Origin: an uncultured Arenicella sp.
GTDB taxonomy: Bacteria; Pseudomonadota; Gammaproteobacteria; Arenicellales; Arenicellaceae
Assembly: GCA_937974565.1 (NCBI GenBank)
Contig: CALJWL010000054.1
Location: forward strand, 1 to 64,000
Direction of reading: 5' to 3'
DNA: 64,000 nucleotides
Positions 21,078 to 62,333 of the stretch are shown here, in pieces. Below the pieces are notes generated by a model. It worked only from the letters and a program-made list of their open reading frames with translations, did not search any database and had not been told where the DNA came from. Numbering within the stretch: position 1 is the first letter of the stretch; every line of letters begins with the position of its first letter. Both the position numbers and the translations under genes were made by a program.

Positions 21078-22127
21078 TTGAAATTTTTCAGCCCCAAATC
21101 TAAAGCAGTGGTCGGCATTGACATCGGGACTCACTCGGTGAAAGTGGTCGAGTTGGCTGGCACAAAGGCCAACCCTAAGGTCTTATCGTGGGGAGTTGCG
21201 CCCCTTCCTTCTGGCGCTTTTTCCGAGAATGCCATCGCCAATGCTGAGCTGGTAGCCGATACGCTGTCCGGCTTATTAGTCAGTGCCGGTGTTAAGGGAA
21301 CGAACGTTGCCGTAGCGGTTTCGTCTTCTCATGCGATCACCAAAGTGCTTGGAATGCCGTCAGGTATGCGAGACGTTGAAATGGAAGAGCAGATCAGCAT
21401 TGAGGCACTGCATTTTATTCCATACCCGATTGACGAAGTTAATCTGGATTTTGAAATTCTTGGCCCGTCCTCAACTAATGAAGGCGAAGACGATGTGCTT
21501 TTAGTTGCTTGTCGGCGCAGTATTGTTGAAGATTACATCGATCTTGTTGAGGGTTTGGAATTATCGCTCGACTACGTGGACATCGATACCTACGCTCTTG
21601 AGCGAGTGTACCGAGCGCAAAATAACTTGATGGCGAACTCCGATGAACCAGTGGCTATTTTTGATATTGGTTCGTCAAGCAGTCATTTGATGGTTGTTGA
21701 TAATGAGCGAGTGCTGTATTCGCGTCATCAAAACTTCGGAGCCGCTCAACTGGTTAAGTTGGTGCGTAAAGAATATGGCGTATCCGCTGATGAGGCCGAA
21801 GAGATATTGAACTCATCGCAACCGCCTGCTGATTTCTTGCAAACGGTTCAAGAACCATTTGTCGAAATGCTTCGTCAAGAGATCAGTCGAGCATTACAGT
21901 TTTTCTATTCTTCGAGTTCGCATTCGAACATTGATAGCGTGGTACTTGCGGGTGCTTGTTGTGCGTTGGCGGGGCTTGGTGGTGACCTTGAGTTAAAGCT
22001 TCGTTCCAAGGTGGTGGTCATGAATCCAGTTGTTAATGCTAGCGTTCAATCACGTCGAGATGCAATTACAGCCAAGGCATCAGCACTGTCAGTGGCATAC
22101 GGTCTTTCTTTGCGAGGTTTAAGCTAA
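21078..22127 (+). CDS. pilM: Type IV pilus assembly protein PilM
   Basis: 349 residues starting at a TTG codon preceded by GGAGG (21069-21073); the protein then begins with KFFSPKSKAVVGIDIGTHSVK, the expected PilM N-terminus, and no ATG fits. It is an actin-like cytoplasmic ATPase-fold protein with the phosphate-1 motif VVGIDIGTHSVKVVEL and a second nucleotide loop at AIFDIGSSSSHLMVV. PilM binds the cytoplasmic tail of PilN and helps to assemble the inner-membrane alignment complex. It opens the pilMNOPQ operon and overlaps pilN by one base. Confidence 0.96.
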   Translation: MKFFSPKSKAVVGIDIGTHSVKVVELAGTKANPKVLSWGVAPLPSGAFSENAIANAELVADTLSGLLVSAGVKGTNVAVAVSSSHAITKVLGMPSGMRDVEMEEQISIEALHFIPYPIDEVNLDFEILGPSSTNEGEDDVLLVACRRSIVEDYIDLVEGLELSLDYVDIDTYALERVYRAQNNLMANSDEPVAIFDIGSSSSHLMVVDNERVLYSRHQNFGAAQLVKLVRKEYGVSADEAEEILNSSQPPADFLQTVQEPFVEMLRQEISRALQFFYSSSSHSNIDSVVLAGACCALAGLGGDLELKLRSKVVVMNPVVNASVQSRRDAITAKASALSVAYGLSLRGLS

Positions 22128-22699
22128 TGGCGAATATCAATTTACTACCCTGGCGTGAAGCCCAACGGCGCGAGCGCAATCAGGTAACGCTTTTTATGTG
22201 CATCGGTATTTGGCTTGTGGCTGGTTTGATCGTCTTTGCCGGAATAACCGTGATGGATATGCGGATTTCATACCAGCAAGATCGTAACCAGTATTTGCAA
22301 ACAGAAATTGATAAATTAGCACGAATTATTAGTGAAATTGAGACACTAAAAGACAAACGTGACGCTTTGTTAGCCAGAATGGAAGTCATTCAAAACTTGC
22401 AGCAAAATCGTTCTCAGATTGTGCATGTGTTTGACGACTTAGTGAGTAAACTGCCTAATGGCGTTCATTACGACAGCATCAGCAAAAACAGTCAAGGTCT
22501 AAGCATAAATGGTAAGGCCCAGTCAAACGGCCGTGTTTCCGCATTAATGCGTAGTCTTGATGCCTCTGATTGGTTTGATGGGGCAGCTCTAAAGGTGGTT
22601 GATGTGGTGGATGAAAACGGAGCCTTGGTAAGTAAATTTGATCTTAGTGTAAGAGAAGAGCGCAAAGATCAAGAAGGCAATGCCACTGGCGACTTATAG
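22127..22699 (+). CDS. pilN: Type IV pilus assembly protein PilN
   Basis: 190 residues. The N-terminal INLLPWREAQRRERN is the conserved PilM-binding tail. A single membrane segment follows (about 22-42), then a coiled-coil (about 45-95) and a small periplasmic ferredoxin-like domain. PilN pairs with PilO in the inner membrane to form the alignment complex of the pilus. Its ATG overlaps the pilM stop (TAATG), so the two are translationally coupled. Confidence 0.95.
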   Translation: MANINLLPWREAQRRERNQVTLFMCIGIWLVAGLIVFAGITVMDMRISYQQDRNQYLQTEIDKLARIISEIETLKDKRDALLARMEVIQNLQQNRSQIVHVFDDLVSKLPNGVHYDSISKNSQGLSINGKAQSNGRVSALMRSLDASDWFDGAALKVVDVVDENGALVSKFDLSVREERKDQEGNATGDL

Positions 22700-22752
22700 A
22701 AACTCGTGCAAGTAGCCAAATTACAGCAAAGAGAATCAGAGAATAAATTGTT

Positions 22753-23346
22753 ATGGGACTAATTGAAGAATTAAACGGCCTAGATATAAACGACATAGGT
22801 TCGTGGACTCGCCGTGTAAAGTTGATTATGGCCACCGTTGTCGGGATTTGTTTAGTGTTTGCGGGGTATCATTTTTTTATCAAGGACCAAATAGTCCAAC
22901 TTGAAGGCATTGAGCGTAAAGAACCCCAGCTAAAGGGTGATTATTTGGCAAAAAAAGCGTTGGCTATCAATTTAGATGCATACAAGGCTCAAATGATTGA
23001 AGCGGAAGAAACTTTTGGTGTGCTCTTAAAACAGTTACCGAATGAAAGTGAAATTCCTGATTTGCTGATTGATATGACTCAAGTGGGGTTGTCTCGTGGT
23101 TTGCAGTTTCAGCAAATTAAACCAGGAAATATCATCGAAAGAGACTTTTACGCTGAAAAGTTAGTCAACGTTAAAGCCACGGGAACGTATCACCAAATTG
23201 CCGGGTTTGTCAGCGATATTGCAGCCTTACAGCGAATTATCAATGTCGACAATTTCAAGCTTGAGCGTAATAATGATACCAACGAGTTGAGTTTGGATGC
23301 TGTAACCAAAACTTACCATTACTTGGAAGAGTCCGATGTCCAATAA
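22753..23346 (+). CDS. pilO: Type IV pilus assembly protein PilO
   Basis: 197 residues. A short cytoplasmic segment with the GLDINDIGSW pattern typical of PilO precedes a membrane segment (about 22-42), a coiled coil and a periplasmic domain with DMTQVGLSRGLQFQQIKPG. PilO forms a heterodimer with PilN and contacts PilP. It lies 53 bases after pilN and overlaps pilP by 11 bases. Confidence 0.95.
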   Translation: MGLIEELNGLDINDIGSWTRRVKLIMATVVGICLVFAGYHFFIKDQIVQLEGIERKEPQLKGDYLAKKALAINLDAYKAQMIEAEETFGVLLKQLPNESEIPDLLIDMTQVGLSRGLQFQQIKPGNIIERDFYAEKLVNVKATGTYHQIAGFVSDIAALQRIINVDNFKLERNNDTNELSLDAVTKTYHYLEESDVQ

Positions 23347-23875
23347 AATTTCAAAGTTGATGACGGTGGTGGGTATTGCTTTGTTGACCCAGTCTTGTAT
23401 TGGTTCGGATATGTCCGACCTTGAAAGTTTTGTGGCGACAGCCCACAAAGATAGGCGTCCAGAAATTGAACCGTTACCTGAAATACCCCCCTTTAAAGCA
23501 TTCGAGTACGCAAGCCAAGACGGCAATGACCCGTTCAGTTCTGACAACATTGTTACTAACAATGGTGAAGGAAGAGGAGCAGGAGTAGGCACTCGACCAG
23601 ATTCAGATCGCCGGCGTCAACCCTTAGAGCAGTATCCCTTGGATGCGTTAACCTTGGTCGGTACGATAACCAAAGATGGTATACCTAACGTGGTTGTCAA
23701 AACCAATGAAGGCTCGGCTTTATTGGCTACTATTGGCAACTATATGGGTCAAAACGATGGAAAGATTAAAGAAATTATCCCAGAAGAGCAGCGTGTAGTC
23801 TTGGTTGAAACTGTGCTTGACCCTGCTGGGCGTTGGATTACACGTGATGTTGAGATGACGATAAATGAACAATAA
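23336..23875 (+). CDS. pilP: Type IV pilus assembly lipoprotein PilP
   Basis: 179 residues. The N-terminal hydrophobic stretch ends in LLTQSC, a degenerate lipobox (Gln at -2), so Cys19-21 is the likely lipidation site but not a perfect one. A flexible Pro-rich region with PLPEIPPFKAFEY follows, then a beta domain with LTLVGTI, GKIKEIIPEEQRVVL and a final RDVEMTIN. PilP links the PilNO complex in the inner membrane to the secretin PilQ. It overlaps both pilO and pilQ by 11 bases. Confidence 0.94.
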   Translation: MSNKISKLMTVVGIALLTQSCIGSDMSDLESFVATAHKDRRPEIEPLPEIPPFKAFEYASQDGNDPFSSDNIVTNNGEGRGAGVGTRPDSDRRRQPLEQYPLDALTLVGTITKDGIPNVVVKTNEGSALLATIGNYMGQNDGKIKEIIPEEQRVVLVETVLDPAGRWITRDVEMTINEQ

Positions 23876-23894
23876 TAAATCAGGAAGCAGAGTT

Positions 23895-26189
23895 ATGAGA
23901 GCAAGCCTATTACTTAATTGCATGCAAAAGAGCTTCAAGCGAATCGTTACAGTGATTGTATTGGCTCTGATGTCTGGAGCTGCTGTAACTACCGCCCAGG
24001 CGGCCAATTTAACTGATCTCGTTTTTAGTAAGCTAAGCGGCGATAACATACAGATCAATATTGTTGCAGACGCACCTCTCGCAGAGCCGGGAAGCTTCAG
24101 CACAGACACGCCAGCGCGAATAGCGTTAGACTTTTTTGGTATGAAAAGTGAGCTTGCTGCTGCGCAGACCTTGGTTGAGGCTGGCAAAGTCAAAAGCATT
24201 GTGGCCGCTGAAACTTCTGATAGAACAAGAATTATTATTAACCTTTATGAGTCTGCTCGCTACACTATTAATGAAAGTGAGAATGGGTATTCGATAACGG
24301 TATTTAATAAAACAACCGATCTCAGCGGCACAGTTGCCCCTAAGCCATTCGCTAAGCGGGCTGATGTGACGCCTGATACGTCCGTTTCGAATATTGACTT
24401 TCGGCGCTCTGAGGCTGGTGGTGGCACATTGATTGTGGATCTTGACGATGACAACTTTGCTGTCGATACCCGTGAACGAGGTGGTGAAATTGTGGTCGAT
24501 CTTTTAGGCGTCACATTACCAGCTCAGTTTGAGCAAAGCCTTGACGTGACTGACTTTGCTACCCCAGTTAGAAAAATTGACTCGTTTCAAAACTCAGATA
24601 ACGTTCGATTGATTGTTGTACCTCAAGGAAAGTATCAGCACTTGTCTTTTCAGGCTGGGGGGCGTTTTACCTTGATAGTGGACCCTATTATTGAAACCAT
24701 TGAGGACACGCGAAACCAAGAAGATTTGGCTCTTGGGTATGAGGGTGAGCGCTTATCTATCAACTTTCAGAATATCGACGTTAGGGCTGCGCTGGCTGTG
24801 ATTGCGGACTTTACTGGCATCAATTTCGTGACCAGTGATGCCGTGGAAGGTGAGATAACCATTAATCTTAAAGACGTACCGTGGGATCAGGCGCTGGATG
24901 TTATTCTTAAAACGCAAGGTTTAGGGCAGCGTAAAACCGGCAATGTGATCTGGATTGCTCCGAACGACGAAATTATTGAGTTTGAAGAGTCTGAGCTTAA
25001 AGCCAACGCGGTTATTGAAGAGTTGGCGCCATTGGTGACTGAAATTATTCAGATCAATTACGCTAAAGCTGAGGATATAGCGAAAGTAATTCAAGAGGTT
25101 AAGCAGCAGTCGGAACAGTCTCAGACTAATTCAGTGAGTGGTCTATTGGGCGCAAGCGAAAGCACAACGACGGAAACCGAAACGTCGGATGGTGGTAACT
25201 CGTTACTTGGAAAAAGAGGAAGTGTTACGGTGGATGTGCGGACCAACAGTTTGTTGGTGCAAGATTTGCCCCACAAAATTGTAAGCTTAAGAAAAGTGAT
25301 TGCTCAGCTTGATAAGCCGGTTCGTCAGGTGTTAATTGAAACTCGAATTGTTGAAGCCAGTGATAACTTCAGTAAGGAACTTGGCGCTAGGTTAGGCTTT
25401 CAACAGGTGGTGCCAAATGTGAGACTGCCTGGTGCTAATAGCTCAAACGTAGGAGACTTGTTTACTGGCGGCACACTGGCTGGAAATACGGGCAATATTG
25501 AGTCTTTTAACGAGCGACTAGAAGACAGCTTTGAAGACCCTAATGCATTCACAACGCAGACGTTCACTGGTGGTTCGCCTGGCTTGGCCGTTGATTTGGC
25601 GGCCGATGTTATTGGTGGTGAACGGCCGGCCTCCTATGCATTTGACTTGTTTCGAACTCGTGCAGGAATCAGTAGCATTTTGTCCCTAGAGTTGTCCGCG
25701 CTTGAAGCGGATGGGCGTGGTAAAATTGTCGCCAGCCCTCGCCTTACAACGGCAAATCAACGAGAAGCGCGTATCAGCCAAGGGCAAGAGGTGTTTGTCA
25801 ACGTTCCTGGTAGCGGCCTTAGTGGTGGCTCATTGGAACGTATCGACGCTGAGTTAGAACTCATTGTTACGCCTCAGATAACGCCCGATGATCGAGTGAT
25901 TTTAGATGTTGAAATTCAACAAGACGTATTGATTGCTGCATCGCAGGGTGTGTCTACTGTTGGTACAAAAGAAATTATTACTCAAGTTCTAGCTGACAAT
26001 GGTGAGACTATTGTTATCGGTGGCATTTACCAAGAAAATGAAGCTCAAAATGTAACGAAAGTGCCGGTTTTAGGTGATGTTCCTATATTACGCAATTTAT
26101 TCAGACAGAAGAGCCGAGAATCCACAAGAACGGAGCTATTAATCTTCTTAACACCAAGAATTATTAGCCCTAAATTGAATTTAGGCTAA
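23895..26189 (+). CDS. pilQ: Type IV pilus secretin PilQ
   Basis: 764 residues from the ATG at 23895, chosen for its AGGAAG ribosome site at 23882-23887; an ATG at 23865 would add ten residues. A signal peptide ends in TTAQA before ANLTDL. Two AMIN domains (about 30-125 and 150-255) bind peptidoglycan. They are followed by an STN/N0 domain with the INFQNIDVRAALAVIADFTG pattern, an N1 domain with a Ser/Thr-rich loop, and the C-terminal secretin barrel ending VPVLGDVPILRNLFR then RTELLIFLTPRI. PilQ forms the outer-membrane pore for the pilus. It closes the pil operon and is followed by a double hairpin. Confidence 0.96.
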   Translation: MRASLLLNCMQKSFKRIVTVIVLALMSGAAVTTAQAANLTDLVFSKLSGDNIQINIVADAPLAEPGSFSTDTPARIALDFFGMKSELAAAQTLVEAGKVKSIVAAETSDRTRIIINLYESARYTINESENGYSITVFNKTTDLSGTVAPKPFAKRADVTPDTSVSNIDFRRSEAGGGTLIVDLDDDNFAVDTRERGGEIVVDLLGVTLPAQFEQSLDVTDFATPVRKIDSFQNSDNVRLIVVPQGKYQHLSFQAGGRFTLIVDPIIETIEDTRNQEDLALGYEGERLSINFQNIDVRAALAVIADFTGINFVTSDAVEGEITINLKDVPWDQALDVILKTQGLGQRKTGNVIWIAPNDEIIEFEESELKANAVIEELAPLVTEIIQINYAKAEDIAKVIQEVKQQSEQSQTNSVSGLLGASESTTTETETSDGGNSLLGKRGSVTVDVRTNSLLVQDLPHKIVSLRKVIAQLDKPVRQVLIETRIVEASDNFSKELGARLGFQQVVPNVRLPGANSSNVGDLFTGGTLAGNTGNIESFNERLEDSFEDPNAFTTQTFTGGSPGLAVDLAADVIGGERPASYAFDLFRTRAGISSILSLELSALEADGRGKIVASPRLTTANQREARISQGQEVFVNVPGSGLSGGSLERIDAELELIVTPQITPDDRVILDVEIQQDVLIAASQGVSTVGTKEIITQVLADNGETIVIGGIYQENEAQNVTKVPVLGDVPILRNLFRQKSRESTRTELLIFLTPRIISPKLNLG

Positions 26190-43185: not shown

Positions 43186-44244
43186 ATGAGATCAAGCCCG
43201 TTAAAAATTCTGTTGTTATCGTTGGTGTTAATCGGTATTAATAATCAAGCTCACGCGTGGGGAGAGCGTGGTCACGACTTGATTACGCGTGTCGCTGTGC
43301 AGCACATGAGAAACATCAATAATGACAATTTAGCATTGATGCGTCCGTTCCTGCTGCGCGACCATATGTTAGCGCATTTATCCAATACGCCTGATACTGT
43401 ATGGCGGGCTGACTACATGGGTGAGGAGGTAATAAAAACCAATTCCCCAACGCACTATATTAATTTAGAAAAGGTCGCCACCGGCGTTGAGAAGTGGAAT
43501 GATCTGCCAAGAAGCTTTCGTGAGTATCGTGCCTTGTGTCAATCCAAGGGTCATGACACCACGGACGTTGGCACTGCGCCATGGCGGGTATTGCAACTTT
43601 ATACGTTGATTGTCGACCAATTAACCAATCTCGATGCAAAACCCGATGAACTTAAAGAGCAACACATCAATCAAGCTTTGTTGTACAGCGGTTTAATGTC
43701 ACACTTTGTGGGTGACTTGGCGAACCCGCACCACACCACCGCCAATTACGATGGCCAACTGACCGGTAACAAAGGGTTGCATGCCTACTTTGAGTCGGTT
43801 GTGGTTGCTGAACTGTCTTTTGAGTTGCCAGAAAAAATGCTTAAGAAGGCGGGCAGTCGGGGCTTATGGTTACGTACTTACGGGGCCAAAGAGCGTGCCG
43901 AAATTTTAGCCGACCCACAAAAATTGATTTGGGCTTTGATGGCCGACAGCCACACTCATGTCGAGAAGCTAATCAAGTTAGATGACCGACACTCCATTGT
44001 TGCTAAAAGCATTGTGGATGCAGACTCTGGTGAACAAGCTTCAGCCAAACGGAAACCAGCCAAAGAAGTGAGTCGCCGTTATGAAAAATTTGCGGTTGAG
44101 CGTTTAGCGGTGGGGGCAGACGCCCTAGCCAGATTGTGGCAACTGGCGTGGGTGGAGGCCGGGTCACCCGATATGTCGCAATTTCGCAGCTACCACTACC
44201 CCGTGCAACCGCCGTTTATTACACCGGTTTACGAGTCTGAATGA
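43186..44244 (+). CDS. Exported S1/P1-family nuclease
   Basis: 352 residues. A signal peptide ends in NNQAHA before WGERGHDLI; the N-terminal Trp of the mature chain is one of the zinc ligands in this family, and the following GERGH supplies another. Further zinc-site motifs are SPTHYINLE and SHFVGDLANPHHT, with the conserved HxxxD-H arrangement. These enzymes cleave single-stranded nucleic acids and can remove 3' phosphates. The C-terminal region lacks the fungal disulphides. A role in phosphorus or nucleoside scavenging is plausible. It is convergent with the ABC-2 transporter genes. Confidence 0.85.
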   Translation: MRSSPLKILLLSLVLIGINNQAHAWGERGHDLITRVAVQHMRNINNDNLALMRPFLLRDHMLAHLSNTPDTVWRADYMGEEVIKTNSPTHYINLEKVATGVEKWNDLPRSFREYRALCQSKGHDTTDVGTAPWRVLQLYTLIVDQLTNLDAKPDELKEQHINQALLYSGLMSHFVGDLANPHHTTANYDGQLTGNKGLHAYFESVVVAELSFELPEKMLKKAGSRGLWLRTYGAKERAEILADPQKLIWALMADSHTHVEKLIKLDDRHSIVAKSIVDADSGEQASAKRKPAKEVSRRYEKFAVERLAVGADALARLWQLAWVEAGSPDMSQFRSYHYPVQPPFITPVYESE

Positions 44245-48337: not shown

Positions 48338-50686
48338 ATGTTGTCTATTGAAAAACGAATTGCCGAAGAACTATCACAAACTTCGACCCCAGTTAAACAG
48401 GCCCAAGTTTCTGCCGCAATCACTTTGCTTGATGAAGGTGCCACGGTGCCGTTTATTTCACGATACCGAAAAGAGGTAACTGGAGGGTTGGATGACACTC
48501 AGTTACGCAGCCTTGAAGAGCGTTTAAAGTACTTGCGTGAATTAGAAGAGCGTCGAGTCAGTGTCCTGAAAAGTATTGAAGAGCAAGGTAAGTTAACCGA
48601 CGATCTTAGTGCGGCGGTTATGTCGGCTGAAACAAAAACTGTGCTGGAGGATTTATATCTTCCATACAAAAAAAAGCGACGCACCAAAGGGCAAATAGCC
48701 ATTAAAGCCGGCTTAGAACCATTGGCAGACGCTCTATTGGCAGATGCCATGCTGGTGCCTGAAGACGAAGCCGTGTCTTATATTAACGAGTCTGAAGAAA
48801 CCCCCGTAGCGGATGTGAAGGCGGCATTAGATGGCGCTAAAGCCATACTGATGGAGCGCTTTGCTGAGGATGCCGCTCTATTAAATGAGATACGAACCTA
48901 TTTAGAAGACAAGGCCGTTGTGAGCGTCAGCGTAGCCAAAGATAAAGAGCAAGAAGGCGCTAAATTTCGTGATTACTTTGATTACCAAGAGCCATATAAA
49001 AGCATCCCTTCACATAGAGCGCTAGCGATATTTCGTGGACGCAACGAAAGCATTTTGATGTCGAATCTGGATATTGAAGCGCCTGAAGGTGGTTGGGTTG
49101 GCGACTTAGCGCACCCATGTGAAAAAATGATTGCCAAACGCTTTCATATCTCAGTGCAGGGACGGCCCGCTGATAAATGGCTGGCTCAGGTGGTGAGTTG
49201 GACATGGCGTATCAAAGTGCTGCTGCACATCAGTGGCGATTTGATGATGAAGTTAAAAGAGAAAGCAGAAACAGAAGCGATACGTGTTTTCTCAATGAAC
49301 TTAAAAGACTTATTGCTTGCGGCACCAGCGGGCGCCAAAGCAACCATTGGTTTGGACCCCGGCCTGCGTACTGGCGTAAAAATAGCGGTCGTGGATAATA
49401 CTGGTCAATACAAAGACCAAGGCACGATTTATCCGCATGCACCTAAAAACCAGTGGGATCAATCCATTGCCGAACTGGCCGTTTTGGCAAAAAAACACGG
49501 CGCCGCGTTGATCGCCATTGGTAATGGCACGGCTTCGCGAGAAACCGATAAATTGGCGGGCGATTTAATCAAGCGTCACCCAGAATTAAAGCTGCAAAAA
49601 GTAATGGTCAATGAGGCTGGTGCTTCGGTGTATTCGGCTTCTGAATTTGCCGCCAAAGAGTTTCCCGATTTAGACGTGACTATCCGCGGTGCGGTATCCA
49701 TTGCTCGTCGTTTGCAGGATCCGTTGGCTGAGCTTGTAAAGATTGAGCCAAAGTCGATTGGTGTTGGGCAATACCAGCACGATGTGAATCAGTATCAGCT
49801 TGGTCGCCAATTAGACGTGGTCATCGAAGATTGCGTAAACGACGTGGGCGTTGACTTGAATATGGCGTCCATGCCTTTGCTTAAACGCGTCTCTGGATTG
49901 AATGAAACCATAGCCACCAATATCGTTAACTATCGAAACCTGAATGGTGAGTTTAAGAGCCGAGATGCGCTTAAAGAAGTACCAAGACTGGGCGACAAGA
50001 CTTTCGAGCAAGCGGCTGGTTTCTTACGCATAGTGTCGGATAATGCTAACCCTCTTGACGCGTCAGGCGTACACCCAGAAGCGTATTCTGTGGTTGAGTC
50101 AATAGCGCACAATAACGACCGTGAAATCAATTCAATCATTGGCGATACGGCGTTCTTAAAATCTTTGCGCCCAGAAGACTACACGTCTGAACAGTTTGGT
50201 GTACCCACAATCACCGACATCATTAAAGAGTTAGACAAACCTGGTCGTGACCCTAGGCCTGAGTTTAAAACCGCCAACCTCAAAGACGGCGTAGAAACAA
50301 TTAAAGACTTAGTTGAAGATATGGTCCTTGAAGGCACGGTCACCAATGTGACTAATTTTGGGGCGTTTGTGGACATCGGCGTGCATCAAGATGGGTTGGT
50401 ACACATCTCATGTTTGGCCGATAAGTTCATTGAAGACCCGCATACCGTTGTCAAGGCAGGGCAAATTGTTAAGGTTAAGGTAATGGAAGTTGATGTGGTG
50501 AGAAAGCGCATTGCATTGACTATGCGGTTGCAAGACACCAAGCAAGACCAACGCGATCGTGGCGCTGGCAAACGTGGTGGTGATAAAGGCAGCGCAAAGC
50601 CCAGAGTAAATCAGCAACAGTTTAAACAAAAACCAACGGCGAATAATGCGATGGCGGCTAAGCTGGCGGCGGCGTTTAAAAAGTAA
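48338..50686 (+). CDS. tex: Transcription accessory protein Tex
   Basis: 782 residues, the family length. Order of domains: helical N-terminal region ([20 protein letters not shown]), YqgF-like RNase H fold ([17 protein letters not shown]), helix-hairpin-helix units ([18 protein letters not shown]) and a C-terminal S1 RNA-binding domain ([29 protein letters not shown]). The tail is basic and rich in Gly, Gln and Ala. Tex binds nucleic acids and acts with RNA polymerase; it is the bacterial relative of Spt6. A single gene with no obvious operon partner. Confidence 0.97.
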
Positions 50687-50892: not shown

Positions 50893-52224
50893 ATGTTAAA
50901 ACGATTGATACAACCTTGGGTTGCTAGGTGCTTTGCAAGTACTGCCTGGTTACGCTTGCGTCGAGCTACTGCTTCGTTGCGCAACACGGTCGATGGTGGC
51001 AAACATGGCGTTTTAGTGTTTATCCGCACAGACGACCCCTATAGTTATTTATTGCTTCAAGTCTTAGGTGAATTTCGATCTCGTTTTCAGGTTCAGCTGT
51101 CGTTTTACGTTGTGTCGGATCTACAACGTGATATGTATCCTGAGCCAGAAAAGTGGCGACAAAATGCCATTACGGATGCGCGCTTACTTGCGGGCTTGTA
51201 TAGATTAAATTTTCCTGAACGTAAGACCATCACCGCAAGCGAAGAAGGTAAAGAGGGTGAGCTAATCGGTCGAACGCGTGACGTTAGCGAGCATTTGGTT
51301 ATGCTTCAAGATGCTGAAGATTTTATCGAACAGGCCCTAGTGGTGTTAACGGCTTACTGGGCCGGTGAAAAGTTGGAAGTCCATGATTCAACGCGGGCTA
51401 ACACTGGCCGTGAAACCGCCAAAATAGCGTTAATAAAAAACGACCAGCTTCTAAGGCAGTTGGGCCACTATTTTAGTGCCACGTTATTGTATCAAGGTGA
51501 ATGGTATTGGGGGCTTGATCGTCTGGATCACCTTGAACACAGGCTTAATGATAAAAGCCTTAGTAGAACCGATAATACCGTGGTGTATGATTTAACCAGC
51601 AGACACCTTTGCTCGCCGCACCGCCATCGTGCGGAACGTGCAACGACAGTGCCTCTGGAGATGTATTTTTCCGCTCGCAGCCCGTACTCTTATCTTGGTT
51701 TGGAAAAAGCCTACGCGATTGCCAAGCATCATGGCGTGGAACTGAAGATAAAATTGGTGCTGCCTATGATGATGCGAGGGATGAATGTCCCATCCGCTAA
51801 AAAATGGTATATTTTTTCTGACACAGCAAGAGAGGCCAGAAAGGTTGGGTTGCCTTATGGTTTTGTGGCCGACCCTTTAGGGCTTGCCGTTGAACGTTGT
51901 TATGCGTTGTTTGATTACGCTCGTTCCCAAGGCAAGGAAGCTGAATACTTATTGAGTTTTGCTCGTGCGGTTAATACACAGGGGATTAACGCCGAATCGA
52001 ATGGTGGCATGCGTTTGATTGTTGAACGTGCTGGTCTGCAATGGAAGGTGGCTAGAGGTTTACTTTCCAATCAAGATTGGCGTGAGGAAGTTAATGGCAA
52101 TTATAATGAGTTAAGTGAATTAGGGCTTTGGGGAGTACCTTGCTTTAAGTTCGGCAGTTTTGTGGTTTGGGGGCAAGATCGCCTCGAATTTATTGAGCAA
52201 AAAATTTGCAGCGCCACGCCTTAG
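50893..52224 (+). CDS. Tandem DsbA/HCCA-isomerase-fold protein
   Basis: 443 residues made of two thioredoxin-fold modules with helical insertions. Module 1 starts at VFIRTDDPYSYLLLQVL (about 42) and ends GEWYWGLDRLDHLEHRL (about 215). Module 2 starts at EMYFSARSPYSYLGLEKAY (about 255) and ends with the cis-Pro motif GVPCFKFGSFVVWGQDRL. Both have PYSYL in the place of the DsbA CxxC, so they match the 2-hydroxychromene-2-carboxylate isomerase/kappa glutathione transferase branch rather than oxidoreductases. No signal peptide is seen; the N-terminus is basic. The function is unknown. A secreted beta-helix protein is encoded 130 bases downstream. Confidence 0.8.
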   Translation: MLKRLIQPWVARCFASTAWLRLRRATASLRNTVDGGKHGVLVFIRTDDPYSYLLLQVLGEFRSRFQVQLSFYVVSDLQRDMYPEPEKWRQNAITDARLLAGLYRLNFPERKTITASEEGKEGELIGRTRDVSEHLVMLQDAEDFIEQALVVLTAYWAGEKLEVHDSTRANTGRETAKIALIKNDQLLRQLGHYFSATLLYQGEWYWGLDRLDHLEHRLNDKSLSRTDNTVVYDLTSRHLCSPHRHRAERATTVPLEMYFSARSPYSYLGLEKAYAIAKHHGVELKIKLVLPMMMRGMNVPSAKKWYIFSDTAREARKVGLPYGFVADPLGLAVERCYALFDYARSQGKEAEYLLSFARAVNTQGINAESNGGMRLIVERAGLQWKVARGLLSNQDWREEVNGNYNELSELGLWGVPCFKFGSFVVWGQDRLEFIEQKICSATP

Positions 52225-52356
52225 TGCCTCCGACGCTATTATTGCCCCCCCCGATGGTATTACTCAGACAATAGACCTTACTTGTAAACCGGTTGTCACA
52301 CATATGCCTTAGAATTTTCTTATTCAATGCGACCAACCCACACTCTTTATCTGACC

Positions 52357-53631
52357 ATGAAGCAAATTTTACTGTCGGTTGTTGCGTGCATTTGCATTTC
52401 AGCAAGCTCAAGCGCAACAGCAAAAAACATTATCCATGTAGAAAATGGCCATAACAGCGGTGCGGGTTCTTTACGTGCGGCTCTAGAGAGCGGCGCATCG
52501 GTCATTCATATACCCAGCTCAATCTCGTCTATTACTGTCAAGCAGCCATTAGAGTACTCGGGCAATAGCATACGCATCAACGGCAACCATCAAACCATTG
52601 ACGCATCAGCTTTGCAAGGCAATGATACTATTTTCTCTATTTCTTCAGCCACCAACATTTCTATTAGTAATCTGCGCCTGGTCGGAAATGCTTTCGAAGT
52701 AAATCAAAACCCGGCTTCTGCCGTTGGAGGAAAAGGAATTTTTGTTAACGTACCAGTCAGTAGTCAAGGCATTGTTAAATTAGTACTTAATCACGTCACT
52801 GTCTCTGGTGTGGGCAATCATGGCGTACACGTATCAGACTGCACCTTACTTGATGATTGTGGTGCTGGCAGTGGTGGTGCGGGTCAAGGGTCAGCGGCAT
52901 CAGTGCAGGTGAAACTAAATCAAGTTGTAATAACCGACGTTGGGTTTGGTAAGCAGGACGCTGACGGCGTTCGTGTGGACGAGCGCGGTGAAGGCAATAT
53001 CTATTTTACGGTTAAAGATTCCGTGTTCAGCAACGTGGGGGCCGACGGCATTGAACTGGATGAAGGAGGGCAAGGCGACATTGTGGCTGACGTTCGTGGC
53101 AGTGTGTTTCAAAATAATGGAGAGTATTGCGCGCTTATCCCTTTTCTCGAGGCAGGACCTTGTGATGATGACGGCGACGCCGATGTGGATGATGGTTTTG
53201 ACATTGATGAAGCCGGCGCCGGCTCGATCTACGTGAGTGTCAGAGAGTCTCAGATTAACAATAACTTCGATGAAGGCTTAGACTTCGATGAAGAAGGGCC
53301 TGGTAACATCGTTATGCGTCTTGAAAATGTGATAACGCTGTCCAACGTTGACGAAGGCATCAAGGCCTCTGAAGAAGACGAAGGCAATTTGGTTGCCACT
53401 TTACGAAAGGTCAGTGTTGCTAATAATAACGGCCGAAAAGAGGCGGTTGAATTGGAAGAGGAGAGTGGCGGTAATGTCCATGTTGTCATTCGCGATTCAA
53501 CCTTCGTGGGTGGCGACAAAGAAGCGCTTAAAGTCGAGCAGCAGGGTGCGGGCAGCGGTCGGCTAAAAGTTCGAAGGTCAAAACTTGATGAAATTGATAC
53601 CGATGGTATTTCTGAGATTGATGTAAATTAA
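52357..53631 (+). CDS. Secreted acidic right-handed beta-helix protein with 27-residue repeats
   Basis: 424 residues from the ATG at 52357 (MKQILLSVVACICISASSS), with a signal peptide ending near SATA. Residues 25-200 fit a parallel beta-helix of the pectate-lyase type (GAGSLRAALESGASVIHIPSS; INGNHQTIDASAL). From residue 203 to the end a repeat with an exact 27-residue step occurs: units begin DG, DG, DG, EG, EG, EA, EA, DG at residues 203, 230, 279, 306, 333, 362, 389 and 416. A 22-residue Cys-containing insertion sits in unit 2 and a two-residue insertion in unit 5. Each unit has an acidic cluster, a Gly-x-Gly and a beta strand. No catalytic residues are recognised; the acidic turns could bind calcium. 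Confidence 0.8.
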   Translation: MKQILLSVVACICISASSSATAKNIIHVENGHNSGAGSLRAALESGASVIHIPSSISSITVKQPLEYSGNSIRINGNHQTIDASALQGNDTIFSISSATNISISNLRLVGNAFEVNQNPASAVGGKGIFVNVPVSSQGIVKLVLNHVTVSGVGNHGVHVSDCTLLDDCGAGSGGAGQGSAASVQVKLNQVVITDVGFGKQDADGVRVDERGEGNIYFTVKDSVFSNVGADGIELDEGGQGDIVADVRGSVFQNNGEYCALIPFLEAGPCDDDGDADVDDGFDIDEAGAGSIYVSVRESQINNNFDEGLDFDEEGPGNIVMRLENVITLSNVDEGIKASEEDEGNLVATLRKVSVANNNGRKEAVELEEESGGNVHVVIRDSTFVGGDKEALKVEQQGAGSGRLKVRRSKLDEIDTDGISEIDVN

Positions 53632-53793
53632 AAGCCTTTATGGTATTTCATAATGTTCTAGGCACTTGCTGCGCTTTTTAATAAAAGGAAAGACGGTTCG
53701 GCTTTGCCCTTTTGCCTGCCGCTGTTGTGAAAAACAAGAGATAGGCTCGATAGTGAGACGCTTAAGTTCTATACTTTGTGTCCGTCCACTTTT

Positions 53794-54816
53794 ATGATTC
53801 ACGCCTGTACAACAGATATGGCACTAGGCCCTGAAACTAAAATTTGTTTGGCACCTATGGAAGGCGTAGTAGACGCTGAAATGCGTGCCGTGCTTACGGC
53901 CATTGGCGGTTATGACCGTTGTGTTACTGAGTTTGTGCGTGTAACCGAACAAACGATTCCCGACCATGTCTTTTTTCGTTATTCACCAGAATTAAATAAT
54001 GGAGGAATGACCGCCACGGGTGTGCCAGTCTTCTTACAATTATTAGGCGGAAATGCCAAATGGATGGCCGTGAATGCGGCCCGAGTTGCACAATTGCAGC
54101 CGCCCGGAATTGACCTTAACTTCGGTTGCCCATCCAAAACCGTTAATAAGCGCGAGGGTGGTTCTGTGTTGCTAAAAGAGCCAGAACGTGTGGGCGAAAT
54201 TGTGAGTGCGGTGCGTGATGCCGTTGACCCAGCCATACCAGTAACCGCAAAGATCAGGCTTGGTTTTTCCAACTCAGATGATCTTGAAGAGATCACTGAG
54301 CGAGTATTGCAAGCCGGCGCAAATGAGTTATGCATACATGCCCGAACTAAAGAAGATGGCTATAAGCCCCCAGCGCATTGGCATCAAGTTTCTCGAGTAT
54401 CAGCACAAACGCAGTTAGCGCAGGTGCCACTCATTATTAATGGGGATATCGCCTGTGTCGATTCGGCAGAGCAAGCAATCAAGCGCAGCAATGCTCAGCA
54501 CATCATGCTAGGGCGAGGTGCATTGCGGATGCCTGATCTGGCGATGTTGATTAAATCAAAGTCTAAAGCCGGTCGTGAACGAACGCCTTACCAACCTTTG
54601 GGCTGGGTGGCAATTTTGCAAACGTTGATTGCCTATTTAAATCGATCAACGAACGAACACCCACATTTTGTGGGCAATCGTGCTAAGCAATGGCTTGGGT
54701 TTCTAAAAGTCACCTACCCAGAGGCCGAAACCGCTTTTCAATGCATAAAGCGTTTAAAAGGTGAGAGTGAGGTTATGACCGCATTGAACGGCTGTTTGGG
54801 TCAGGCTGACTTCTAG
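53794..54816 (+). CDS. dusC: tRNA-dihydrouridine synthase (DusC type)
   Basis: 340 residues from the ATG at 53794; a second ATG at 53818 is also possible and neither has a strong ribosome site. The FMN-binding barrel has CLAPMEGVVDAEMRAV, LLGGNAKWMAVNAARV, DLNFGCPSKTVNKREGGS (catalytic Cys in GCPS) and ELCIHARTKEDGYKPPAHW. The ARTKEDGY block is typical of DusC, which reduces U16 of tRNAs. The C-terminal helical tRNA-binding domain is present. The end of the gene overlaps the end of the convergent MOSC gene by 44 bases. Confidence 0.92.
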   Translation: MIHACTTDMALGPETKICLAPMEGVVDAEMRAVLTAIGGYDRCVTEFVRVTEQTIPDHVFFRYSPELNNGGMTATGVPVFLQLLGGNAKWMAVNAARVAQLQPPGIDLNFGCPSKTVNKREGGSVLLKEPERVGEIVSAVRDAVDPAIPVTAKIRLGFSNSDDLEEITERVLQAGANELCIHARTKEDGYKPPAHWHQVSRVSAQTQLAQVPLIINGDIACVDSAEQAIKRSNAQHIMLGRGALRMPDLAMLIKSKSKAGRERTPYQPLGWVAILQTLIAYLNRSTNEHPHFVGNRAKQWLGFLKVTYPEAETAFQCIKRLKGESEVMTALNGCLGQADF

Positions 54817-55612
54817 CAATCAGTTCTACAGCATCTCCGACTCGTATTTTCCCCAGCCCATGATGCAATGCATTTTGACCAAAATAGGTGATTTGTTCGT
54901 GGCGTCTGGTTTTAAGTAAGGCTTGGTTGACGGCCATTTCCTTTTGGCCCGTGTCAGGGTTGACTGATGGAATAATGCACCGCGAACACGGTTTTACCAG
55001 ATTGAACTCAATCTCGCCAACTCGAATGGTCTGCCAACTGTCTTCGGCGTAAGGCGTGGCGCCAGCAATAACGATGTTAGGCCTAAATCGACGCACATCA
55101 ACAGGAACCTCTAAGTGTGAATTGAATTCATCTAATGATTCTTGCGTCACCACCAAGGTAGGAAACCCGTCGGCAAAGGCCACAAGTTCACCAGCCTTAG
55201 CAAAGTCAGTGTTGACGCTGCGAACGGTTCGATTATTAAGACAAACCAGACGACAAGACGTGCCTAAGAATTCACTTAACCAGATCGCCACTGATTCTCC
55301 ACAATCTGAGGCGATGACACTGTCCTTCCAAATTGTAACGTTAATGTCTTTCCGGTCGGTTCCGTTTGATGAGTTTATAAGAATCGACTTATGGCCAACG
55401 GCACTGAGTTTGAGGTTTTGTGTTTGCACGCTTACTTCGGCTTTAAGTAAGCACAACTTAGGGTGTTTACGCTGACTCATAAACACCCCAACGTCATTCA
55501 CTATCATCCATTGTCGGTCGCAATTTGGCCCAAGAGCTGTGTAGTCAAGCTCTTGCACAGAAATTGCCGCCGTTGATTTAACCGGATGTAGGTAAAGTTC
55601 AGAAATATGCAT
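54773..55612 (-). CDS. MOSC domain protein (YcbX-like, no ferredoxin domain)
   Basis: 279 residues from the ATG at 55612, two bases past the end of the neighbouring stop codon region. The N-terminal MOSC beta-barrel begins MHISELYLHPVKS, as in YcbX and eukaryotic mARC. The MOSC domain has VRRFRPNIVI and KPCSRCIIPSVNPDTGQKE, with the molybdenum-ligand Cys in the KPCSRC region. E. coli YcbX has an additional C-terminal 2Fe-2S domain, which is missing here, so electrons must come from a separate protein. The probable role is reduction of N-hydroxylated compounds. The gene overlaps dusC tail to tail. Confidence 0.88.
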   Translation of the reverse strand: MHISELYLHPVKSTAAISVQELDYTALGPNCDRQWMIVNDVGVFMSQRKHPKLCLLKAEVSVQTQNLKLSAVGHKSILINSSNGTDRKDINVTIWKDSVIASDCGESVAIWLSEFLGTSCRLVCLNNRTVRSVNTDFAKAGELVAFADGFPTLVVTQESLDEFNSHLEVPVDVRRFRPNIVIAGATPYAEDSWQTIRVGEIEFNLVKPCSRCIIPSVNPDTGQKEMAVNQALLKTRRHEQITYFGQNALHHGLGKIRVGDAVELIARSQPDPNSRSMRS

Positions 55613-55616
55613 GGCT

Positions 55617-56144
55617 TTAGTTTGAAGTTTCTGATGAAGCAAGTTGTGTGTTTGCTACAGTCTCTTCCATTCTTTCGAACCAGAATAGATCATCATCAGG
55701 TTGAAATGAAAAACGAGTTAACATTCCCGTCAATAACATTAACCAAGCAAAGAGCCCTAACAAGCTTACGCTTTTAAAACTTGGGCTGAATATTTGTTCT
55801 TCAGAAATTAATGTACCACTTTCATTTTCTGTTAGTGTGAGAATGGTTTTATTTTTTATTCCGGCTTGATGCCTCAATGTTGAAAAGCTCTGATATTGTT
55901 TTAAGCCGATTATCACTGACTTAACAATATCTCCTTCGCAATCCTTTCCAGTGTGAACCTCTGTCCAAAAATGTTTTTTTTCAAGTACAAAATCGTTTGA
56001 TATTTCACAATAATAACAAGGGTCTTTAGTAAATTTTACGACATGTTTTGGATGTACTAAAAATTCCCAAATTTCTTGAGGTTTAAATTTACTTTGAAAA
56101 TGAACAATTGTTTTTCTGTATTTTCTTTTACCCTGAAATGACAT
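55617..56144 (-). CDS. Uncharacterised protein with C-terminal membrane segment, possibly SRPBCC-like
   Basis: 175 residues. I do not recognise a family with certainty. The first 125 residues alternate short strands and a helix in an order that resembles START/SRPBCC domains (IVHFQSKFKPQEIWEFLVHPKHVVKF; LTENESGTLISEEQIFSP). A membrane segment (SLLGLFAWLMLLTGML) follows near residues 128-145 and the chain ends in a short acidic tail. The DNA is clearly more AT-rich than its neighbours and the codon use differs, which suggests acquisition. Its stop is five bases from the MOSC gene start, so the two may be co-transcribed. Confidence 0.7.
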   Translation of the reverse strand: MSFQGKRKYRKTIVHFQSKFKPQEIWEFLVHPKHVVKFTKDPCYYCEISNDFVLEKKHFWTEVHTGKDCEGDIVKSVIIGLKQYQSFSTLRHQAGIKNKTILTLTENESGTLISEEQIFSPSFKSVSLLGLFAWLMLLTGMLTRFSFQPDDDLFWFERMEETVANTQLASSETSN

Positions 56145-59857: not shown

Positions 59858-60251
59858 TGCTAATGAGTTCTTTCATCCTTGGTTAACGTTGGTAAAATAG
59901 TAGCAAAGAATGTTGTAATAAAGAAGAGTACGCAATGATGTCTGTTCATAACGACCTACTCACAAATACAAAAATTGCTTGAGCATGTTTGGCGGCAGAG
60001 TGGCTTTTGGATGGCATATAGTCACCTTGATTGAACGGCTTTTGAAGCTCGGAGAAAACCCAAATTCGACTAAATTAGCGGCGTATGGGTTCTTGCCTTT
60101 CTCAGGGTAACACTGATTTGTTCAGCAAAGCGCGATTGAAGTCATGGTGATGAACATCAATTAATGAGGGCCTTGGGTGAATGCGTCGATTGAGGCTCAC
60201 ATCAAAGGTGATATTCTTGCGATCGATAAATTTCACGTTGAATCATGCATT
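59858..60251. other. Non-coding region ahead of the TonB-dependent receptor gene
   Basis: About 394 bases. It contains a short plus-strand frame starting ATGATG at about 59936 (15 codons) without other support. The promoter of the receptor gene should be here; no Fur-like palindrome or riboswitch is apparent by eye. Confidence 0.4.
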
Positions 60252-62333
60252 ATGAACGCTGTTAAATCATTGTTGCCTGTGTTGTTGATAGTCACCTTGG
60301 TCGTTAATTGCCAAGTTGCACAGGCCGAAATCGAAACCGTTGTTGTGTCGGCCACCCGGACGGAACAGCCGTTGAATGAAGCACCCAGCAATATTACGGT
60401 AATAAGCGCATCGCAGATTGCGGTTACGCAGGCCGAGCATATTCAGCAACAGCTAAGCCAGGCTCCTGGTGTCAGTTTACAGCGTGGCGATGGGCAAGAA
60501 TCCTTACCCGGTATTCGCAGTGCTGTTCTTACTGGCGCGGGCGCGTGTGGCAATGTATTGATTATGGAAGAGGGATTACCGGTGCGCGGGCCTGCCTTTT
60601 GTAATGTCAATGAGTTATTTGATACTCACTTCGAACAAGCCGCTCAGATTGAAGTGACCCGTGGACCCAGCACTTCATTTTATGGTTCCAATAGCCTTAC
60701 CGGCAGCGTTAACATCAGCCTTCCTTTGGTTGGTAAAGACTTTGTTGCTTTGGAGGTGGGCGAAGAATCCTATCGACGAGCGAAAGGCGCTTTCTCTTAC
60801 GGTGATAGCGGCCACAATGAGTTTGCTCAAGGTCGATTTTATGTCACCATTACTGACACCAATTCGTTTCGCGAAAATGCTGATTATCAGCAGCACAAGA
60901 TAAGTTGGCGTCATCAACAAGAACTGGGGTCTTGGCGAGTGAACGCCGGTTTTACCGCGACCCAACTTGATCAAGAGACAGCCGGGTTTATTGTTGGCTT
61001 AGACAGTTATTTGGATGAAACATTGGCGCGTGAAAATCCAAATCCTGAAGCGTTTAGAGACACCGATTCGTTTCGAGCTTGGGCGCGTTTTAACACCGAA
61101 ACCCGCAGCGGTAAGACACTGCAAATTACGCCCTACGTTCGTGCCACTGAGATGGACTTTCTGTTGCATTTTTTACCGGGTGACCCTTTAGAACAAAACA
61201 GCCAACAAGGGTTTGGTTGGCAGTCTTCGTTGCGAGGTGAGTTAAATCAAAATGTGAACTGGGCCATCGGTTTGGATGCTGATTTTTCAGAAGGTGAGCT
61301 ACGGCAAAGCCAGGCGGAACCCACTCGGGGTTCGGCATTCTTACAAGCAACCATTCCCACAGGTGTACACTACGATTATCAAGTTGATTCAGAGCAGCTA
61401 GGCCTGTTTGGAAATTTGGATTGGCAAATAAACGATGCTCTGAGTTTGGTTGCGGGCGCGCGCGCGGAACGTTTAGATTACGATTATAACAATCTCTCGC
61501 TCGATGGGCGTACTCGTGATGATGGCACTGAATGCGGTTTTGGCGGTTGTCGTTATAGTCGGCCTGCGGATCGAAGTGATTCGTTTTCAAATATCTCACC
61601 GAAATTGGAACTAAGATACACCGTGAATGACAAGCTTCGGCTATACGCCGCAGCGGCATCGTCTTTCCGTGCCCCCCAAGCTACCGAACTTTATCGGCTT
61701 CAACGCCAGCAACAAGTGGCGGACTTAGACAGTGTGCAGGCCGATAATGTGGAGTTTGGCTTGAATTATCGCAGCGATAAAACGCACATTTCTTTGAGTT
61801 TTTATCAGTTAGAGCAAAGTAACGTAATTATTCGTGATAGTAATTTTTTCAATGTGGACGGTAATGAGCTTGAGAGCCAAGGGCTTGAGTTCTCTATAAA
61901 GCACGCTGTTTCTAACTCACTTGAGTGGCGTGCTGCGGGTGCTATTGCGGAGCATGATTACGCCTCTGACCAATTCTCTGGCGGTGTGAATATCAACGGC
62001 AACGAAGTGGATACCGCGCCCACCAGTTTGATCAACACGGCCATTTCATGGCAAGTATTTGAAGGTCTCGAAGCCGAGCTGGAAATGCAGCATGTGGGTG
62101 CCTATTTTCTGGAGCCAGAAAATCTCAGAGAATACCCAGGTCACGAGGTCTTTAATTTGCGTGCCTCGTATCAAATCAGCCCACGCTTTTCAGCCACTGC
62201 ACGGTTAATTAATTTAACCGATAAACGCTTTGCAGAGCGAGCTGACTTTACTGGGTTTACCGCAGAGAGGTATTTCCCAGGGGCACCGAGAACCGCTTAT
62301 TTGGGTGTGCGTTATGAATTCGGTGCGCAGTAA
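60252..62333 (+). CDS. TonB-dependent outer-membrane receptor
   Basis: 693 residues from the ATG at 60252, which starts a normal signal peptide (MNAVKSLLPVLLIVTLVV, ending in AQA); an in-frame GTG at 60177 is less likely. The TonB box is ETVVVSATR. The plug domain has the ITVISASQI, LPGIRSAVL and IEVTRGPSTSFYGSNSLTGSVNI blocks. The barrel occupies about 180-693. A Cys pair in the plug (GACGNVL and PAFCNVNE) and another in an outer loop (TECGFGGCRY) may be disulphides. The chain ends YEFGAQ rather than in the usual terminal Phe or Trp. Substrate unknown. Confidence 0.93.
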   Translation: MNAVKSLLPVLLIVTLVVNCQVAQAEIETVVVSATRTEQPLNEAPSNITVISASQIAVTQAEHIQQQLSQAPGVSLQRGDGQESLPGIRSAVLTGAGACGNVLIMEEGLPVRGPAFCNVNELFDTHFEQAAQIEVTRGPSTSFYGSNSLTGSVNISLPLVGKDFVALEVGEESYRRAKGAFSYGDSGHNEFAQGRFYVTITDTNSFRENADYQQHKISWRHQQELGSWRVNAGFTATQLDQETAGFIVGLDSYLDETLARENPNPEAFRDTDSFRAWARFNTETRSGKTLQITPYVRATEMDFLLHFLPGDPLEQNSQQGFGWQSSLRGELNQNVNWAIGLDADFSEGELRQSQAEPTRGSAFLQATIPTGVHYDYQVDSEQLGLFGNLDWQINDALSLVAGARAERLDYDYNNLSLDGRTRDDGTECGFGGCRYSRPADRSDSFSNISPKLELRYTVNDKLRLYAAAASSFRAPQATELYRLQRQQQVADLDSVQADNVEFGLNYRSDKTHISLSFYQLEQSNVIIRDSNFFNVDGNELESQGLEFSIKHAVSNSLEWRAAGAIAEHDYASDQFSGGVNINGNEVDTAPTSLINTAISWQVFEGLEAELEMQHVGAYFLEPENLREYPGHEVFNLRASYQISPRFSATARLINLTDKRFAERADFTGFTAERYFPGAPRTAYLGVRYEFGAQ

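Follow-up and report, generated by a model that had tools for sequence, protein, structure and literature searches.

An acidic beta-helix protein encoded by an uncultured Arenicella sp. carries a single, strongly conserved charged face, and its relatives make up a marine beta-helix family that, as searched, has no Pfam or NCBIfam model of its own and is marked by a position-specific charged groove. The window analysed comprises 64,000 nucleotides (positions 1 to 64,000 of contig CALJWL010000054.1, assembly GCA_937974565.1). In the predicted model the acidic units correspond to a single strand, PB1, as it recurs from coil to coil, and together they would form one charged groove. We tentatively propose that the protein is carbohydrate-active, with a cation-loaded groove on a Sec-exported single-chain beta-helix, a reading that we place a little short of an even chance.

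Results

The gene and its 27-residue rhythm

The gene (52357..53631, + strand, as are all features of the protein given below) encodes 424 residues, and ORF, translation and AlphaFold2 (AF2) model together describe an acidic protein with a Sec-like N-terminus and the fold of a right-handed beta-helix. Another ATG is in frame 10 codons further upstream; relatives begin at the ATG used here (e.g. with MKQIL in L003). Judged by eye from the sequence, residues 1–23 (52357..52425) form a signal peptide, and hydrophobic N-termini are likewise apparent in many homologues, which supports the initial annotation's description of the protein as secreted as far as a Sec-like N-terminus can. Counted from the letters, residues 24–424 have a pI of 4.3 and a net charge of -36, and Asp and Glu make up 53 of the 225 residues in 200–424.

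Eight unit starts, at residues 203, 230, 279, 306, 333, 362, 389 and 416, had been reported and are found exactly there, in the ORF as described, with steps of 27, 49 (27 + 22), 27, 27, 29 (27 + 2), 27 and 27 residues. Among lags 5–79 in residues 200–424, lag 27 scores best (mean BLOSUM62 score 0.64, compared with -0.81 ± 0.16 at this lag in 5000 shuffles, z 8.8; the top shuffled value at any lag is 0.13), and the seven full units score 34.8 per pair versus -20.8 ± 2.5 in 10000 shuffles (maximum -11.0). Both the ORF and its period of 27 residues are genuine, the latter exceeding chance by far. Homologues were expected to share the period, and they do in the middle coils but not in the last ones: across 55 rows the 27-residue step is kept at 204–231 and 280–307 in 55/55, at 307–334 in 52/55 and at 334–363 in 41/55, while the last step, 363–390, is 27 residues long in only 10/55 and 30 residues long in 30/55.

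Predicted fold and structural matches

Supplied with 55 family members, AF2 predicts the solenoid that the annotation had anticipated, a right-handed beta-helix over residues ~25–424 (mean pLDDT 91.5, pTM 0.90); the single-sequence run gave a poor model (pLDDT 56.5), which was set aside. The predicted model has the three-strand coils of the pectate-lyase-like right-handed parallel beta-helix fold, with DSSP helix 39–44 as N-terminal cap. PB1 strands occur once per coil, at residues 205–209, 232–236, 281–285, 308–312, 335–339, 364–368 and 391–395, and an equivalent strand lies in an earlier coil (157–160). Since the solenoid is predicted to begin near residue 25 and contains the same strand in that earlier coil, the eight units would cover roughly its second half.

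We compared 501 chains, picked by Foldseek, using VIA-align 2, which gave Z 26.4–34.3 over 281–350 residues among the 50 entries listed. They include an alginate epimerase/lyase (8ja4, Z 30.4), several tailspikes (Z ~30) and plant polygalacturonases (Z 29.0–29.5). Foldseek TMq values were 0.23–0.55 among the 50 rows listed, with a modest 0.42–0.49 for the 2pyg/2pyh chains. Matches from viruses do not discriminate, being tailspikes and a variety of beta-helix proteins; a common fold does not fix function.

The cap helix and first coils (residues 24–120, 52426..52716) show weak sequence likeness to pectate-lyase-like proteins: PF20585 (Pectate_lyase_5) matches residues 61–114 at E 0.018, under its cut-off (15.6 bits versus 24.3), and the family profile matches VexL at E 0.0032 and RbmB at E 0.0014, in the N-terminal part only. 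RbmB, a polysaccharide lyase of Vibrio (9ozl, 9ozd), also matches the model in structure at Z 31.8 over 317 residues, but its sequence match stops before the acidic units. For the repeat region we found no sequence relatives in the PDB; the single-sequence search returned one chance match, and the family-profile search one more besides its N-terminal matches. Against Pfam and NCBIfam, neither the window protein nor, in six members scanned, the beta-helix part gave a match above cut-off. PF13229, the general Beta_helix model, does not match the window protein at E <= 1. At E 0.1 or better, PF20585 is found in 3/55 and PF13229 in 18/55 members (best E 0.018 and 1.2e-6). Apart from these two general models, no polysaccharide lyase or glycosidase family is among the 13 Pfam families matched by any of the 55 members (E <= 0.1).

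One charged face, conserved coil by coil

Relatives were collected from a species-genome collection with the seeds HG[VI]H[VI]SDC and ADG[IVM]ELDE; 404 stretches matched and 137 were confirmed, of which the best 80 were retained and the remaining 57 left out. They yielded 56 non-redundant rows, reduced to 55 by omitting L070, whose ORF lies at a contig edge, with L079 trimmed to its beta-helix part. Eight rows from profile searches brought the set to 63, repeats of rows already present being dropped. The seeds make the conservation of H155, G156, H158, S160–C162 and A229–E236 partly ascertained.

Invariant in the 63 rows are D161, D201, D203, R206, D208, D230, E233, D235, D276, D279, D282, D284, D305 and D309. 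The earlier coil contributes NHGVHVSD (residues 154–161, 52816..52839), in which H155 is kept in 58/63 and D161 in 63/63, and H158 is His in 59 and Tyr in 3; it is partly covered by the first seed. DGVRVDE (203–209, 52963..52983) and DGFDIDE (279–285, 53191..53211) lie outside the seeds and keep D203, R206 and D208, and D279, D282 and D284, in 63/63 each, as DGIELDE (230–236, 53044..53064), partly ascertained by the second seed, keeps D230, E233 and D235. EGLDFDE (306–312, 53272..53292) has E306 in 62/63, D309 in 63/63 and D311 in 61/63, and EGIKASE (333–339, 53353..53373) has at position 336 Lys in 61 rows and Arg in 2, with S338 in 55/63; E236, E285 and E339 are kept in 62/63. Two less conserved coils follow. 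At 362–368 (53440..53460) position 365 is Val with weight 0.52 and Glu with 0.25, and E367 has weight 0.96; at 389–395 (53521..53541) position 392 is Glu with weight 0.52 and Lys with 0.34.

The residue at G+2, counted from the glycine of each coil, reads H158-R206-E233-D282-D309-K336 and thus differs between coils but hardly between species. Across R206, E233, D282, D309, D208, D235 and D284 there is no exchange between Asp and Glu (63/63), and R206, D208, D282, D284, D309, D311 and K336, all outside the seeds, are as fixed as the positions the seeds cover. Over the five coils G204–G334 (55 rows), mean conservation percentiles are 94 at G+2, 92 at G+4, 91 at G-1 and 88 at G+5 and G+9; the outward positions of PB2 and PB3 are the least conserved, with mean percentiles of 9–17. 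In the same coils the PB1 outward positions, assigned like the others from strand alternation in the predicted model and not from coordinates, have a mean conservation of 0.76 (minimum 0.67) versus 0.22 (maximum 0.33) for PB2/PB3. All ten outscore the twenty PB2/PB3 positions; the p of 5.7e-6 is descriptive only, because the positions were picked after seeing the conservation profile. A distant branch, L090–L092, found by profile in 3 of 369 sampled class genomes, keeps R206, E233, D282, D309 and K336 in 3/3.

The observation that no enzyme motif is visible stands in so far as no known motif appears, but the acidic units make up one near-invariant, position-specific charged face. A groove that changes so little speaks for a specific ligand, which might be a sugar chain, and not for a purely structural repeat.

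Cys-bearing loops and the age of the repeat

Two loops carry cysteines. The first, 162–181 (52840..52899), has C162 and C168, each in 53/55 rows and presumably disulphide-linked. The second is the 22-residue insertion 257–278 (53125..53190) between two coils, with C258 and C269, both present in 55/55 rows and both absent in L090–L092. The stretch from C258 to before D276 measures 18–25 residues in 16 rows and 56–66 in 39 (n = 55). The Cys-containing insertion reported earlier is thus present, but as a loop of variable length that is Cys-free in the distant branch; it is an accessory loop between coils, probably pinned by a disulphide. By eye, its end and the next strand resemble a calcium loop (D276-x-D-D-G-x-D-x-D-E).

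The proposal that the structure grew by repeat duplication found no support: no coil gain was seen in 55 rows, although copy number was read via the alignment, which might overlook an extra coil within a long insertion. Recent duplication is unsupported, the step being 27 in 55/55 rows at two places and the other steps varying by residues or loops. For coils 204–334, the query coil and the same coil in relatives have a mean identity of 0.56–0.81, and the coils compared with each other within proteins 0.32–0.51. Any duplication would therefore be ancient, as the same coil across relatives is more alike than coils within a protein; the alignments make the repeat number look fixed, which again speaks for an old event.

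Genomic surroundings

Upstream, a DSBA-domain gene (50893-52224; 443 residues, a single DSBA domain in the C-terminal half) separates the beta-helix gene from the ORF 48338-50686, which we take to be Tex-like from its sequence; in L007 these two are adjacent without the DSBA gene. Downstream, a dihydrouridine synthase gene (dus, 53776-54816) adjoins the beta-helix gene, followed on the minus strand by a MOSC protein (54773-55642). A promoter scan of 52200-53800 found 5 sites versus 2.4 ± 1.6 in shuffles, none of them in the gap before the beta-helix gene, and one terminator-like site versus 1.2 in shuffles. Elsewhere in the window are an S1/P1 nuclease family protein (43186-44244; PF02265, E 8.7e-08), with a 60% identical ORF in L007, and, 6.5 kb downstream of the beta-helix gene, a TonB-dependent receptor (60177-62333; PF00593, E 2.4e-41).

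The genome (3.37 Mb) holds no other copy of the protein at E <= 1; its 16 PF13229 matches all lie on other contigs, and this model also rings in 8/14 control genomes. It does encode a GspD-type secretin above cut-off, which makes release of the beta-helix protein by type II secretion possible, and we saw no link between the two. Within the window, 24759-26168 is a secretin-like match to the GspD model, under cut-off, in a cluster (21078-26189) that is presumably type IV pilus pilMNOPQ.

Within the genus, the gene and dus are neighbours in G000 and G013, and in G011 they lie ~10 kb apart. The other seven of ten dus loci hold no other window gene within ~1.5 kb; in two of these (G007, G017) the genome carries the beta-helix gene on another contig. 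An operon partner was sought by clustering neighbouring ORFs, called by length only and without family models, and no neighbour is common to most of the 55 non-redundant loci, the nearest ones differing. Apart from the beta-helix gene itself, which forms the first cluster for 49/55 loci, the widest clusters span 11, 7 and 6 of 55 loci. The 11-locus cluster is ABC-transporter ATPase-like (named from sequence), at varied distances and on varied strands; the 6-locus one is LysR-like (also by sequence), directly upstream in two loci.

Distribution

The nearest named relatives are Arenicella MAGs. A full-length gene is found in 5/18 genomes of the genus, our own included (seven of the 18 are <90% complete). 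G012 (locus L006), of the same genus, has a short broken remnant with ~70 residues matched and one TGA, so that at least one close relative shows decay of the gene. Relatives are patchy across gamma- and alphaproteobacteria, SAR11 included: the best 80 of 137 include Arenicella, Kangiella, Neptuniibacter, Marinomonas, Halieaceae, Oleiphilaceae, Roseobacter relatives, Methyloligella and SAR11, together with two 'actinobacterium' MAGs, and many of the host names are those of marine or saline organisms. Prevalence is low where sampled: the gene occurs in 6/369 sampled class genomes and 7/398 sampled phylum genomes (own genome included in both; two of the seven are weak partial matches), and in 5/198 genomes of the family of G745, with G745, its centre, included. 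In the tree, Kangiella falls among Arenicella rows with modest support (89/84).

An origin from a mobile element or phage, for instance as a tailspike, was considered and rejected: plasmids gave no match at E 1e-5, two scans of IMG/VR viral contigs returned 7 and 146 pattern stretches of which none was confirmed, PHROG gave no match at E <= 0.01, and the adjoining genes encode DSBA, Dus and MOSC proteins. In Halochromatium glycolicum (L079:5667-9182) a 1171-residue ORF starts with a 5'-nucleotidase (PF02872, E 7.4e-17) and has the beta-helix as its C-terminal part, preceded by a weak dockerin/EF-hand-like stretch (PF00404, E 0.0017, under cut-off); this fusion would fit a binding module no less well than an enzyme. 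A literature search found nothing recognisable as this family, which is no proof of its absence from print.

Selection and a diversity dip in SAR11

Nei-Gojobori counts were made for seven pairs, two of them saturated at synonymous sites. The five usable pairs gave dN/dS of ~0.14 (L010/L083), 0.15 (L068/L086) and 0.07 (L077/L086, dS 1.9), and, at dS <0.03, of ~0.15 (L050/L048) and 0.37 (L043/L059), indicating purifying selection by a wide margin. In the SAR11 L034 group (L034:7959-9347 with L031–L033, L035–L042, L044–L047 and L069; loci aligning at 97.1–98.5%), 45 pairs of 10 genes are too alike for dN/dS (dS at most 0.013). Among 17 L034-type genomes (136 pairs), the gene halves differ by 0.15% and 0.26% per pair, whereas 500-base windows of the 3.5-kb flanks differ by 0.9–2.8%. 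The dip edges coincide with the gene, and a position-wise analysis shows the same dip. With flanks far more diverse than the gene, the near-identity is not that of one lineage counted repeatedly. In five L043-type genomes the gene differs by 0.9–1.5%, downstream windows by 4.9–9.0% and upstream ones by >=23% (indels and misalignment included); in five L050-type genomes (Alphaproteobacteria) it differs by 0.7–1.2% versus mostly 1.7–5% nearby, one window being as low (1.0%). The SAR11 dip suggests a recent sweep or exchange at the level of the gene, or else an unusual constraint extending to synonymous sites. We treat it as a lead only, because the groups were formed by >90% identity of the beta-helix protein, which favours low gene divergence and acts in the same direction.

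Discussion

If the protein is carbohydrate-active, the helix would, once exported by Sec, present one long charged face. With the beta-helix coil spacing of ~4.8 Å, the outward side of PB1 would form a groove ~24 Å long over six coils (5 steps of ~4.8 Å). Its Asp/Glu core would probably hold several calcium (or magnesium) ions and be flanked by conserved residues, His and Arg N-terminally and Lys C-terminally, with the two Cys-bearing loops, and their putative disulphides, expected beside it. Its most likely job would be to bind an extracytoplasmic carbohydrate chain and probably to process it as a lyase, epimerase or glycosidase would, and export may extend beyond the periplasm. A face so rich in carboxylates requires counter-ions, which sea water supplies in the form of calcium and magnesium, so the simplest reading is a groove filled with cations; the calcium stabilisation suggested by the initial annotation is plausible. 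Without cations to fill it, a groove of such acidity would be an unexpected site for a polyanionic substrate. Against a carbohydrate-active protein stand the absence of any family match above cut-off and of a common partner gene, and also the modest Foldseek TM-scores and the Halochromatium fusion.

In the pectate-lyase-like fold class, active sites lie on the PB1 face. Among the 501 chains the highest Z belongs to the A-module of AlgE (2pyg, AlgE4, Z 34.3; 5lw3, AlgE6, Z 34.2; 326 residues, 3.0–3.2 Å). AlgE enzymes are described in PMC7385640 as secreted mannuronan C-5 epimerases that are calcium-dependent or calcium-stimulated, with Tyr149, Asp152, His154 and Asp178 as catalytic residues. 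These are spaced 0, 3, 5 and 29, and D203, R206, D208 and E233 here 0, 3, 5 and 30; the match is a lead by spacing only, setting Tyr, Asp, His, Asp against Asp, Arg, Asp, Glu. At 15% identity, the window protein differs from AlgE in having no R-module and many more acidic residues on the face. The surface adhesin PfbA (3zpp, Z 29.3; 4mr0, Z 27.9) is of the same fold class at 14–15% identity, with Foldseek TMq of 0.55 for 4mr0_B and 0.23 for 3zpp, and no anchor is apparent in the window protein. RTX proteins bind calcium through the nonapeptide repeat GGxGxDxUx; by eye GGxGxD is absent here, and the period is 27, not 9. BapP, another Ca2+-dependent adhesin, is presented without a beta-solenoid in PMC12153261.

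What the conserved face is for can be read in other ways. The main rival, possible though less likely, is a non-catalytic Ca2+-dependent adhesin or matrix protein, whose groove would bind a polysaccharide or cell-surface polymer via bridging cations. PfbA is among the structural matches, and its chain 4mr0_B shares the top TMq among the rows listed with 5gqc_A; the best Pfam lead, under cut-off as it is, is named 'putative pectate lyase-like adhesive domain'; and both the fusion behind a 5'-nucleotidase and the lack of a common neighbour in the 55 loci would suit a binder. Yet by eye the last 25 residues of 56 rows show no apparent anchor or secretion tail, and a face fixed residue by residue, at many positions in 63/63, goes beyond what an adhesive surface would lead one to expect.

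That the acids merely build a solenoid, as carboxylate ladders binding Ca2+ for rigidity or salt-water adaptation without a specific ligand, goes back to the calcium-stabilised structure of the initial annotation, and the 27-residue spacing of the units and the many marine or saline hosts agree with such a solenoid. We hold this reading to be improbable. A pure carboxylate ladder should allow Asp/Glu exchange and should not fix Arg or Lys, and the opposite is seen: the acids do not interchange from coil to coil, Arg206 and Lys336 vary as little as the acids do, only one face is conserved, with the outward positions of PB2/PB3 far less so, and in the last two coils the repeat persists but its residues do not. 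More improbable still, in our judgement, is a periplasmic or surface scavenger of a small cation (a divalent metal or polyamine), or a cation buffer. The dense carboxylates on one face and the presence in SAR11, which are not known as polysaccharide specialists, would suit such a role, but the ABC-transporter ATPase-like cluster is scattered, leaving no transporter gene as a steady neighbour, and the strip contains conserved Arg and Lys.

Returning to the carbohydrate-active groove, a bolder form of it would be a new class of beta-helix enzyme whose groove, lined with carboxylates and holding several cations, is flanked by His/Arg and Lys. Such an enzyme would be spread across marine proteobacteria, SAR11 among them, its gene would have no partners in the genome, and in SAR11 populations that gene alone would have undergone a recent sweep or exchange. 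We regard this as speculative, and doubtful in its entirety.

Altogether, regularity alone is no proof that a repeat is structural or duplicating. What was an anonymous 'acidic repeat protein' becomes a testable family in which six coils place fixed charged residues on one face, in a fold known for polysaccharide chemistry and in organisms that include streamlined SAR11 lineages. Should the protein be an enzyme, marine bacteria would carry an unlisted, cation-rich type of sugar-chain-processing protein; should it be an adhesin, the same groove residues would be the targets to break binding. The gene-sized dip in SAR11 diversity suggests that the beta-helix gene matters to cells at sea now.
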